Positions 44,079 through 46,441 of a stretch of DNA of 64,000 bases are shown here, in pieces. A model generated the notes under the pieces. It made no database searches. It was not told where the DNA came from and worked only from the letters and a program-made list of their open reading frames with translations. The position numbers and the translations under genes are program-made. Each line of letters opens with the position of its first letter. Position 1 is the stretch's first letter. Source of the stretch: Loigolactobacillus coryniformis subsp. coryniformis KCTC 3167 = DSM 20001 (GTDB lineage: Bacteria; Bacillota; Bacilli; Lactobacillales; Lactobacillaceae). The stretch is taken from the NCBI RefSeq assembly GCF_002706425.1, contig NZ_CP017713.1, forward strand, positions 806,001 to 870,000, written 5' to 3'.

Positions 44079-44143
44079 GGACTGATTGCAAGTGTCCGTA
44101 ACAGCAAAAAATAATTATATTATGAAGTAGAGAGGTGTCGTTG

Positions 44144-44503
44144 ATGGTAGTAAATGGATCAACTAAAAAACCTGAGCGCATGATTCAAGAATATGTTCCG
44201 GGTAAGCAAGTTACTTTAGCGCATATTATTGCGAGTCCGGATGAAGATATTTATACGAAATTAGGCTTAGATGATGACCATAATGCATTGGGGATATTAA
44301 CGATCACCCCTAGTGAAGCGTCGATCATTGCCAGTGATATTGCGACTAAAGCGGGTAATGTTAAGCTTGGTTTCATTGATCGGTTTAGTGGCTCAGTTGT
44401 GATCTGCGGCGACGTTTCTGATGTGGAGTCAGCGCTGAACCAAGTAATCACCAAGTTACAAACGATCCTCGATTTCTCTGTACCGGTGATTACCCGAACC
44501 TAA
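44144..44503 (+). CDS. pduU: Microcompartment shell protein PduU (circularly permuted BMC domain)
   Basis: The 119-residue protein closely follows PduU/Eut[20 protein letters not shown] at the N-terminus (six-stranded barrel segment), then [20 protein letters not shown] and [17 protein letters not shown]. PduU hexamers sit in the shell facets. ATG 44144 is chosen because GAGAGG lies eight bases upstream; an in-frame GTG at 44135 overlaps the SD. It is apart from the main pdu operon, with pocR in between. Confidence 0.93.
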
Positions 44504-44539
44504 GTTTGACGAGTAAGTAGCCACTTTAATTAAATAATG

Positions 44540-44678
44540 ACCATTCAAGTGATCCAAAGGAAACTAGTGTAAATCTAGTGCTGTACCCGCAACTGTGAGA
44601 TGGACAATGCATATAACCACGTTAGTTTGGAAGGATATGCGGCGATTGAGATCAAGTCAGGATATTTTGGTGAATGGT
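44540..44678 (+). promoter_or_regulatory. Cobalamin riboswitch oriented toward the 3' end of pocR
   Basis: P1 is ACCATTCA (44540-44547) with TGAATGGT (44671-44678). The conserved core reads AAAGGAAACTAGTGTAAATC, then GTGCTGTACCCGCAACTGTG (about 44578-44597), and the B12 box GATCAAGTCAGGATATTTTG. It lies on the plus strand after pduU. No plus-strand gene starts for 1.4 kb; instead pocR is encoded on the minus strand from 45854 down to 44880. Transcription passing the terminator at 44728-44766 would be antisense to pocR. Confidence 0.9.
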
Positions 44679-44727
44679 ATACAGGCTTTTTCGGGAGTAG
44701 AGAAGCGCGGTGCTTTATTTAGCTAAC

Positions 44728-44766
44728 AAAAAAAGGCGCAGCGGGAAAAGCCGTTGCGTCTTTTTA
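44728..44766. terminator. Terminator downstream of the cobalamin riboswitch, also suited to end pocR
   Basis: AAAAAGGCGCAGCGG pairs with CCGTTGCGTCTTTTT around GAAAAG. The T run on the plus strand makes it the likely expression platform of the riboswitch; the A run preceding it gives a T run on the minus strand for pocR. Confidence 0.85.
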
Positions 44767-44879
44767 GCGTCTAATTTGGGAAAGCATTGAGAGGTTGCGG
44801 TTCGGCCTGAACCTGGTTGAAAAAGGGTGGTCCATTGTCGACTAGCTGTGCCATAACCTGAGTGCCTTTTCAATACATG

Positions 44880-45854
44880 CTAGTGGGTCTGGATTTGCTT
44901 ACGGTATTGGCTAGGTGACGCGCCAACCGATTTTTTGAACGTTTTACTGAAGTAGCTGGTCTGCGAAAAGCCTAAACTGTGGGCAATACTGTCAACTGAC
45001 CAAGTTGAATCTTGTAGCAGGATCTTAGCCCGTTCGATTTTTTTATTGTTAACGTAGTCGACAAAGTTGATCTGCATTTCCTTCTTAAACAGCTTACTTA
45101 AGTAGTAGCTAGATAAAAAGACATGTTCGGCGACTTCATCGAGACTGATCACTTCGTTCAAATGTTTATTGATGTAATCCAATGCTTTTTTGATCTCAGG
45201 CTTTTGCGGCTGGACGGGATGGTGCGGTTTCGTGATCGAAAAATTGATTTTAGCGGCCTGTTGTTGGTTATCTGCCGGATCTGGGCCCATTTTAGCTTTG
45301 ATCTGTGCAGGTACTGGTCCCGGTGCATCGACATCAAAGGTACCATTAACAATATTAGATAGGTAATTATTGATGATGATCTTCAATAATTCGGCCCCAG
45401 ATTTGATTTTACTCGGTTTAACTGTTGGTAAATTTGCGTAGGCCTCGCTGAGGATCGGATCTTTATGCCAATCGGTTTTTTCATTTAAAATAGGTTCAAA
45501 TTCAGCGTCATCTGAGACCTTGGCTTGACCGCAAAGAATATAGCCGACTACTTGTTCACCTAACTTGATTGGATAGGAAAAATCGATCAACCCGGCATGA
45601 CAGATATATGGCTGCGATTGTTTTGCTTGAACGGCGCGGCGGCCACCAAACATATCACAGTTTTGACAGAGCTGGCGCGTTTTCTCATTATTACGCATTA
45701 ACTGACAAAAGGGAGTAAAGCCATAGCCGTAAGTTAGTTCGTCCCCGCGGGTATCAACTAGAATAGTGGGTAAGCCTGTTGCCTCAGCAAATTCACGTAG
45801 AATTTTATCGAGAACTTTCTGATTGTTACCAAAGTAATTTTCCGGAACAAGCAT
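44880..45854 (-). CDS. pocR: PocR, AraC-type activator of pdu/cob genes
   Basis: This 324-residue regulator has an N-terminal PocR ligand-sensing domain (about 8-170, with the Cys-rich RQLCQNCDMFGGRRAVQ and YICHAGLIDFSYPI) and a C-terminal AraC pair of HTH motifs (about 225-320; SYYLSKLFKKE and GFSQTSYFSKTFKK). It senses 1,2-propanediol or glycerol and activates the diverging pduA operon. SD GGAGG (minus strand) is close to the ATG. Its 3' end faces the B12 riboswitch on the other strand. Confidence 0.93.
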   Translation of the reverse strand: MLVPENYFGNNQKVLDKILREFAEATGLPTILVDTRGDELTYGYGFTPFCQLMRNNEKTRQLCQNCDMFGGRRAVQAKQSQPYICHAGLIDFSYPIKLGEQVVGYILCGQAKVSDDAEFEPILNEKTDWHKDPILSEAYANLPTVKPSKIKSGAELLKIIINNYLSNIVNGTFDVDAPGPVPAQIKAKMGPDPADNQQQAAKINFSITKPHHPVQPQKPEIKKALDYINKHLNEVISLDEVAEHVFLSSYYLSKLFKKEMQINFVDYVNNKKIERAKILLQDSTWSVDSIAHSLGFSQTSYFSKTFKKSVGASPSQYRKQIQTH

Positions 45855-45957
45855 CTAATTACCTCCATGGTATTTGTAAAATTTAGATTTACAATTAACA
45901 AGAATTCATAAATATACTTTTCAGTATAAGCGGAAATTTAAAGTTAGTAAACCCTAC

Positions 45958-45972
45958 TTGCAAGCGCTTAGC
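45958..45972. promoter_or_regulatory. cre-like site between pocR and pduA
   Basis: TTGCAAGCGCTTAGC matches the CcpA consensus except at one of the last positions. The 272-bp gap should also contain PocR sites, which I cannot delimit. Confidence 0.4.
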
Positions 45973-46075
45973 CAAAATGTAAGCATTTTTTTGTGGTGCA
46001 AGATATTGTCATTTTAACGTTAGTAATTTTTGGACAACTATCAGAATTCGGCAAGAATGTCGCATTCTTTTTTTT

Positions 46076-46081
46076 TATACT
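46076..46081 (+). promoter_or_regulatory. -10 element of the pduA operon promoter
   Basis: TATACT lies 46 bp before the pduA ATG. No good -35 is found 16-18 bp upstream (AAGAAT there), as expected for a promoter that depends on an activator such as PocR. Confidence 0.45.
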
Positions 46082-46126
46082 GGAGTTTGTAAACAGTTAC
46101 ATAATCCAATTTGAGGAGGAATCATT

Positions 46127-46441
46127 ATGCAACAAGAAGCTTTAGGTTTGATCGAAACACGTGGCTTAGTCGCATCAATTGAAGCGGCTGATGCAATGGT
46201 CAAGGCGGCCAATGTCGAATTGACTGGCCAAGAAAAGATTGGGCAAGGACTCATTACGGTTATGGTCCGTGGTGACGTTGGTGCCGTAAAGGCTGCCGTT
46301 GATGCCGGTGTTGCTGCCGCAGAAAACGTTGGCGAAGTTGTTTCTAATTATGTCATTCCACGTCCACACACAGATGTTGAAAAGATCTTACCAACACCAG
46401 GTGCAGTTGGTGATGGCGATGTCAACGTTGAAAACGATTAG
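46127..46441 (+). CDS. pduA: Microcompartment shell protein PduA (hexameric BMC)
   Basis: The 104-residue single BMC domain has [20 protein letters not shown] at the N-terminus and [17 protein letters not shown], with the PRPH motif before a 20-residue tail. Hexamers tile the shell facets and their pores admit substrates. It is the first gene of the main operon, with SD GAGGAGG. It differs from the PduJ paralogue (54394) mainly in the tail and a few surface positions. Confidence 0.95.

Follow-up and report, generated by a model that had tools for sequence, protein, structure and literature searches.

In Loigolactobacillus coryniformis, a cobalamin riboswitch on the plus strand faces the 3′ end of pocR, the gene of a propanediol regulator encoded on the opposite strand, and there is no well-supported sense gene between the two. 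What does such a switch control? The window analyzed here is the whole 64-kb stretch of DNA presented above, which is part of a 2.95-Mb genome in a single contig. The Rfam cobalamin model RF00174 matches the plus strand with 50 bits (gathering score, 31.5) and an E value of 1.7e-9 over all 64 kb. No other Rfam match in the window exceeds its gathering score, and the genome contains just one further RF00174 match. The P1 helix, as read from the sequence, is formed by ACCATTCA paired with TGAATGGT. The covariance model match confirms that the element is a cobalamin riboswitch, cobalamin binding being predicted.

Upstream of the switch, the plus strand carries queG, a glycerate kinase gene, and a pduU-like shell gene that ends 24 nt before the start of the RF00174 match (Table 1); pdu gene names beyond the Pfam matches are our reading. 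Downstream, the PocR sensor domain is encoded beside the pdu operon, and we infer that PocR controls this adjacent operon. Among named records, the protein is closest to PocR of Loigolactobacillus jiayinensis (91%). The 113 nt between the terminator and the pocR stop have one match in their own genome and none in the seven congeners searched.

Table 1. Features of the pocR locus (window positions).
Feature	Position	Strand	Evidence or remark
pduU-like BMC shell gene	44135-44503	+	Pfam BMC PF00936 1.6e-13; ORF; the name pduU is our reading
Cobalamin riboswitch aptamer	44527-44683	+	RF00174; P1 44540-44547 with 44671-44678
P13 regulatory hairpin, GCTTTTT-CGGGAGTA-GAGAAGC	44685-44706	+	−5.9 kcal/mol; pairing kept over 10 loci
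Antiterminator 5′ strand (proposed)	44706-44714 (44706-44708 + 44710-44714)	+	duplex −11.6 kcal/mol; position kept in 10/10 loci
Two-way intrinsic terminator	44730-44765	both	−17.5 kcal/mol core + T-run
113-nt insert, terminator to pocR stop	44767-44879		sequence search of genome and congeners
pocR, AraC-type propanediol regulator, proposed antisense target	44880-45854	−	PF10114 2.2e-38; HTH_18 2.2e-21
Hairpin + U-run before pduA, proposed 3′ end of full-length antisense RNA	46043-46076	+	−8.0 kcal/mol
Box GRCWARAAWGTC + T-run + TATACT, candidate PocR operator and pduA −10	46050-46081	+	overlaps/inside pduA-side hairpin
pduA-like first gene of pdu operon	46127-46441	+	Pfam BMC 1.3e-30

Small proteins were considered as a sense product of the switch in six plus-strand frames of at least 25 amino acids between the aptamer and position 46120, a scope that leaves outside a 50-aa frame (45993-46145) running into pduA. 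The longest frame, of 79 aa, is broken in L. jiayinensis into pieces of 41 and 32 aa. A 35-aa frame has a 33-aa counterpart there, but it starts with TTG and has no Shine-Dalgarno sequence; the strand across from it carries the pocR start, a region that one would expect to be conserved. A 26-aa frame has GGGAG 12 nt before its GTG, yet it has no match in L. jiayinensis. A plus-strand small protein between the aptamer and pduA therefore appears unlikely. The layout is the one drawn in the initial annotation, made from the sequence alone. It had placed a riboswitch at 44540-44678, which is exactly the P1-to-P1 span of the 50-bit RF00174 match, aimed it at the 3′ end of a minus-strand pocR that Pfam now confirms, and seen no plus-strand gene before pduA at 46127, where the present analysis likewise has no well-supported one. 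Its terminator (44728-44766), which it also took to work in reverse for pocR, corresponds to the hairpin described next.

This terminator consists of GGCGCAGCGG and CCGTTGCGTC around a 6-nt loop, is followed by five T, and is entered through an A-tract (44730-44734) that supplies a U-run to the same hairpin on the minus strand; a mechanical terminator scan of the window left it unlisted. Between the aptamer and the terminator lies a hairpin whose loop, CGGG, is complementary to CCCG in the L5 loop of the aptamer. The names P13 and L5 and the kissing contact between these loops follow cobalamin riboswitch structures, and the kissing role is predicted here. In an alignment of 10 loci, all outside the Listeria-like genus considered below, 97.5% of the cells of the P13 stem are paired, with changes on both sides in four of its eight pairs. 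The covariation score over the same loci is 0.531, whereas shuffles give 0.339 and sliding the stem never yields more than 0.211, and two of the five covariation measures were not above shuffles (both-side-changed pairs, 48/500; further pair types, 485/500).

The 5′ arm of the terminator (44735-44739 and 44741-44743) doubles as the 3′ strand of a proposed antiterminator, the 5′ strand of which has one base in common with P13. To assess this pairing, the region between the P13 loop and the terminator was searched for its best pairing with the terminator 5′ arm, and the outcome was compared with 2000 shuffles. In all 10 loci, the pairing begins at the last 1 to 3 nt of P13 (shuffle mean of 2.0 loci, maximum of 7), and its summed energy is −122.6 compared to −73.7 (SD 6.3) in shuffles, none of the 2000 being as low. 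The same result (0/2000) was obtained with one locus per group (six loci). Individually, the L. jiayinensis antiterminator reaches p 0.009, that of the window (−11.6 kcal/mol) is not significant when taken alone (p 0.09), and those of the Vagococcus fluvialis group are weak in all three loci (p 0.06-0.11). For G756 and G872, both outside this set of 10, the script found no antiterminator (p about 0.52), its hairpin choice leaving 7 nt to test. Among 15 Listeria-like loci, which are near-copies of each other, p was 0.002-0.036 in 12, with the pairing starting 11 or 14 nt past CGGG; of the remaining three, one gave p 0.062, and two for which the script chose another hairpin gave p 0.80 and 0.95. 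The whole leader of the window folds no better than shuffles (z −0.89). The competition would thus run from P13 through the antiterminator to the terminator, which is the logic of a transcription switch that is off with B12. The comparison over 10 loci thus supports a predicted expression platform with a terminator and a competing antiterminator, and a platform whose sequence varies across Lactobacillales while its apparent logic is kept.

With the aptamer, P13, the terminator, and the layout all in place and conserved, the pocR-side element is in our estimation quite probably an antisense-acting cobalamin riboswitch that would silence pocR at low B12, the ligand response, the transcript, and the silencing being predictions from sequence. 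A plus-strand transcript, started at its own promoter or by read-through from pduU, would carry the aptamer. With B12 bound, P13 would be held, presumably through the L5-L13 contact, the antiterminator could not form, and the terminator would end the RNA after some 240 nt. At low B12, pairing of 44706-44714 with 44735-44743 would form the antiterminator, and polymerase would cross pocR. The resulting RNA of about 1.5 kb would be antisense to the entire pocR coding region and its ribosome-binding site, since the Shine-Dalgarno sequence (45860-45866, by eye) falls within the antisense span, and would stop before pduA. It would lower PocR, so that the B12-dependent propanediol pathway would not be made without its cofactor.

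How the antisense effect would be exerted is a separate matter. In a variant that overlaps this explanation, the effect is mainly transcriptional interference, i.e., collision of polymerases over pocR and its promoter, rather than pairing of the two RNAs. The convergent layout spans the full pocR gene; collision is listed among the possible routes in passages of a riboswitch survey (PMC9943018), and part of a review of the Listeria system (PMC8079631) says that it cannot be excluded. The same review text, however, describes Listeria AspocR as working in trans without promoting decay of the pocR mRNA, and proposes that it interferes with the initiation of translation. We therefore regard interference as the less likely main route, with perhaps a minority share of the probability.

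The origin of the transcript bears on a second alternative. No promoter-like plus-strand match was found between 44116 and the aptamer, the nearest one (44086-44115) lying before pduU. The switch could instead be a conditional 3′ end of the glycerate kinase-pduU mRNA, the antisense effect being incidental. The 24-nt distance from pduU to the aptamer is in line with this, as is an Enterococcus sp. locus where the upstream stop lies inside the Rfam match (L038, 9206 compared to 9233-9064), and an early reading of the Listeria switch was similar, as told in part of PMC8079631. Several facts argue the other way. The upstream gene varies by lineage (pduU-like, glycerate kinase-like, or pduV-like), whereas the downstream pocR is constant; promoter-like sequences are visible by eye just 5′ of the aptamer in Vagococcus humatus (TTGACT-17-TATAAT) and V. 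fluvialis (TTGTTA-17-TATAAT); and the Listeria switch controls an antisense RNA (reviewed in the same pages of PMC8079631). A mere 3′ end for the upstream mRNA is thus improbable, and control of an antisense RNA remains our preferred reading.

The initial annotation had proposed a search of relatives for the same tail-to-tail arrangement, and such a search finds it repeatedly. In a sample of 397 Lactobacillaceae genomes, RF00174 was detected in 23 (E 0.001, the filters used being ones that miss some weak matches). The PocR sensor domain PF10114 was detected in 9, a number that leaves PocR-like regulators beyond the reach of PF10114 uncounted. The switch and pocR are arranged tail to tail in two of these nine, the genome of the window and L. 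jiayinensis. In an order-level sample of 395 genomes, 80 match PocR at E ≤1e-20, many of them in the HTH domain only, and 33 of the 80 were scanned for RF00174. A switch opposite pocR was present in 25 of the 33, the gap between it and the end of the PocR match being 79 to about 165 nt: 10 in families f2 and f4, and 15 in the Listeria-like genus, which, judging by its PocR and layout, is probably Listeria. Named cases are L. jiayinensis and, among the 25, Enterococcus sp. CSURQ0835, V. humatus, and V. fluvialis. CRISPR repeats (RF01335) were also seen near the V. humatus pocR locus (L039, 10897-11658).

The layout was absent from eight of the 33 genomes (G919, G812, G667, G866, G727, G774, G941, and G887). 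In G812, pocR is at a contig end; the match in G667 is confined to the HTH domain; and in the last five, the PocR-like protein is only about 30% identical. Switch-less pocR also occurs closer to the window. The congener G006 has pocR and pdu, with the pduU stop almost abutting pocR, and a search of 11 kb with E up to 1 gave no cobalamin match. Two further species, L. backii and L. iwatensis, have pocR without the switch in the 11 kb examined, which makes three pocR-bearing congeners lacking it. In the latter two species, pocR lies beside queG, with no pdu genes within 11 kb. Furfurilactobacillus rossiae and F. siliginis have a PocR of 33% identity and no cobalamin match at the gathering score. 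Their diol dehydratase large subunit is 79% identical to that of the window while PocR is only 33% identical, which suggests separate histories for the operon and its regulator.

A further alternative is a functionless relic, left behind by a lost cobalamin transport gene. While the missing sense gene downstream and the missing switch in some congeners would agree with decay, even distant genera retain the pairing of P13 and the position of the antiterminator, and we give a relic very little credence compared to a working switch. The PocR tree requires four changes of the switch label, with G812 (contig end) and the second pocR of G797 labeled as switch-less; by our reading, the switch may have been lost in G006 and L. 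backii. That second pocR of G797 is about 1.1 kb from a switch located before pduU- and pduV-like genes. In this second pdu cluster (L177, 2723-4860), the cobalamin switch is in the sense orientation, and the pduU-/pduV-like genes are convergent with the second pocR, 43 nt away. A switch turned off by B12 before these pdu genes makes little sense unless it acts on pocR too.

Similarity of the aptamers was rejected as proof of common descent. Compared with the aptamer of the window, the Enterococcus and Vagococcus pocR switches outscore most other cobalamin switches, but not cleanly: one switch that is not at pocR (L161) ranks with the pocR switches, and three of four Listeria-like ones rank among the others. 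The common L5 core is partly a matter of selection, because the pocR set was picked by the core pattern, which G756 lacks.

An antisense RNA crossing pocR would run toward pduA, and a hairpin followed by a U-run stands between the pocR start and pduA in all 27 switch-bearing genomes, i.e., those of the window, L. jiayinensis, and the 25 order-level cases. In a test of 14 genomes with 60 shuffles, for which p 0.016 is the floor, the L. jiayinensis hairpin (−8.0 kcal/mol) and those of 12 other loci (−14.7 to −18.0 kcal/mol) reached p 0.016, and that of the window, at the same −8.0 kcal/mol, is not significant alone (p 0.148). The further 13 switch loci have energies, taken without shuffle comparison, of −11.2 to −19.1. 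At switch-less loci, the corresponding values are −0.2 in G006 and −3.0 in F. rossiae, with no hairpin in F. siliginis. G006 retains much of the inner hairpin motif; the outer stem and the unbroken T-run are gone. The hairpin and its parallel loss in G006, a single case, fit an antisense RNA that would need a stop before pduA, and the hairpin may have another use, e.g., as a regulator site at pduA. Its presence in 27/27 genomes argues against the switch being an ordinary long pduA leader read through past pocR, a notion for which the shared strand speaks and which we can hardly credit given the gap of about 1.4 kb and the wrong sign of the response, by which B12 would switch off B12-dependent enzymes. 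Together, the recurrence of the tail-to-tail layout (25/33 and 2/9 genomes), the kept platform logic, and this hairpin lend support to the antisense control of pocR predicted in the initial annotation.

The pduA-side hairpin overlaps the box GRCWARAAWGTC, which had 1 match in the window at ≤3 mismatches compared to 0 in 100 shuffles. Inspection by eye shows similar sequences at the loci of Loigolactobacillus, Enterococcus, and Vagococcus but none at the Listeria-like ones. As a regulon-wide PocR box, GRCWARAAWGTC was rejected: there is one exact site in the window, and at ≤1 mismatch there are 8 sites compared to 5.0 expected, 13 of 100 shuffles having as many. Since the matches are not clearly above chance, it is only a motif common to pduA loci. 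A speculative extension, to which we assign a low probability, is that the final hairpin of the antisense RNA is built on the activator box of pduA, the GRCWARAAWGTC-like motif lying inside the terminator stem in Loigolactobacillus, Enterococcus, and Vagococcus. If so, read-through at low B12 would carry polymerase across the promoter of pocR and bring it to a halt at the pduA operator bound by PocR; a single transcript under B12 control would then silence the regulator by antisense and the promoter of its chief target, pduA, by interference. Also upstream of pduA, at 45958-45973, is TTGCAAGCGCTTAGCC, which resembles a cre site of carbon catabolite control.

The aspocR RNA (Rli39) of Listeria monocytogenes was reportedly described by Mellin et al. 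in 2013. Passages of three reviews present the Listeria system (PMC8079631, PMC7154746, and PMC7677406), and in two of them (PMC8079631 and PMC7154746), it has the same elements as the window: a cobalamin riboswitch 3′ of and opposing pocR, a terminator between them, an antisense span over pocR, and a PocR-pdu context. The hairpin and U-run before pduA are likewise found in 15/15 Listeria-like loci. The differences are that Listeria-like loci have two hairpins between the switch and pocR where Loigolactobacillus has one shared two-way terminator, that the upstream gene is pduU-like in the window and lmo1149 in Listeria, and that PocR is about 43% identical, the antisense transcript being predicted from sequence here. 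The parallel with aspocR drawn in the initial annotation thus stands, as layout and logic are alike in the reviewed passages (PMC8079631 and PMC7154746), and aspocR is supported as the right model for the window locus.

Other antisense-acting riboswitches place the finding in a small class. According to the survey by Serrano-Gutierrez and Merino in 2023 (PMC9943018), only two had been described before that survey, aspocR being one, and cobalamin switches of the antisense-acting kind predicted for the window occur at pocR of other Listeria and of Vagococcus carniphilus. The words Lactobacillus, Loigolactobacillus, and coryniformis have no occurrence in its main text, although the supplementary tables may list lactobacilli. 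The SAM riboswitch opposing ubiG-mccBA in Clostridium acetobutylicum likewise terminates an antisense transcript, as outlined in parts of PMC7154746 and PMC9943018, but it differs in ligand and in its target, which is an enzyme operon and not a regulator. As for lactobacilli, the accessible text of two papers on L. coryniformis propanediol and B12 genes has "riboswitch" only in a reference title (PMC5064896) or not at all (PMC11784251). A Lactobacillus reuteri paper (PMC4122935) cites the 2013 Listeria paper once in the text that was available, in a general remark on regulation, and the PocR and L. coryniformis passages of a B12 review (PMC8123684) are without mention of a pocR riboswitch. The literature searches, which did not extend to the PMC9943018 supplements, thus gave no lactobacillus case, as the initial annotation had held.

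What is new, as far as sequence can tell, is that a pocR-opposing switch occurs in the lactobacillus family and has kept its switching parts there; its range is wider, and its platform clearer, than in the descriptions we found. The aspocR element was worked out in a pathogen; food lactobacilli, along with several species of Enterococcus and Vagococcus, have a conserved copy and so offer a safe organism for its study. Lactobacillales that carry pdu may thus generally use antisense RNA to make the propanediol regulator depend on the cofactor.

The second cobalamin riboswitch of the genome (78 bits; L176, 3458-3645; G000:C1:872957-873144) is located 3 kb past the end of the window, where it overlaps the end of a PduX-like gene just before cbiA. 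Here, within the same gene island, the riboswitch is used in the ordinary way, in cis. The role of the pocR switch would be the opposite of that of the cbiA switch, turning a B12-dependent pathway off when the cofactor is missing. The genes past the window encode proteins of 188, 166, 360, and 288 aa, the same lengths as CobA, CblT, CobD, and PduX of L. coryniformis CRL 1001 in the portion of PMC5064896 that treats them. Among eight Loigolactobacillus genomes, cbiA is present in those of the window and L. jiayinensis, and the other six have only a 26% match in G007 (E 4e-4). B12 synthesis was rejected as a general determinant of switch retention: it fits Loigolactobacillus, but outside the Listeria-like genus, cbiA is missing from 5 of the 10 order-level genomes that have the switch, and G919 has cbiA and no switch at pocR. 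Within Loigolactobacillus, G006, with pocR and pdu but without the switch, the pduA-side hairpin, and cbiA, provides a natural contrast to the window.
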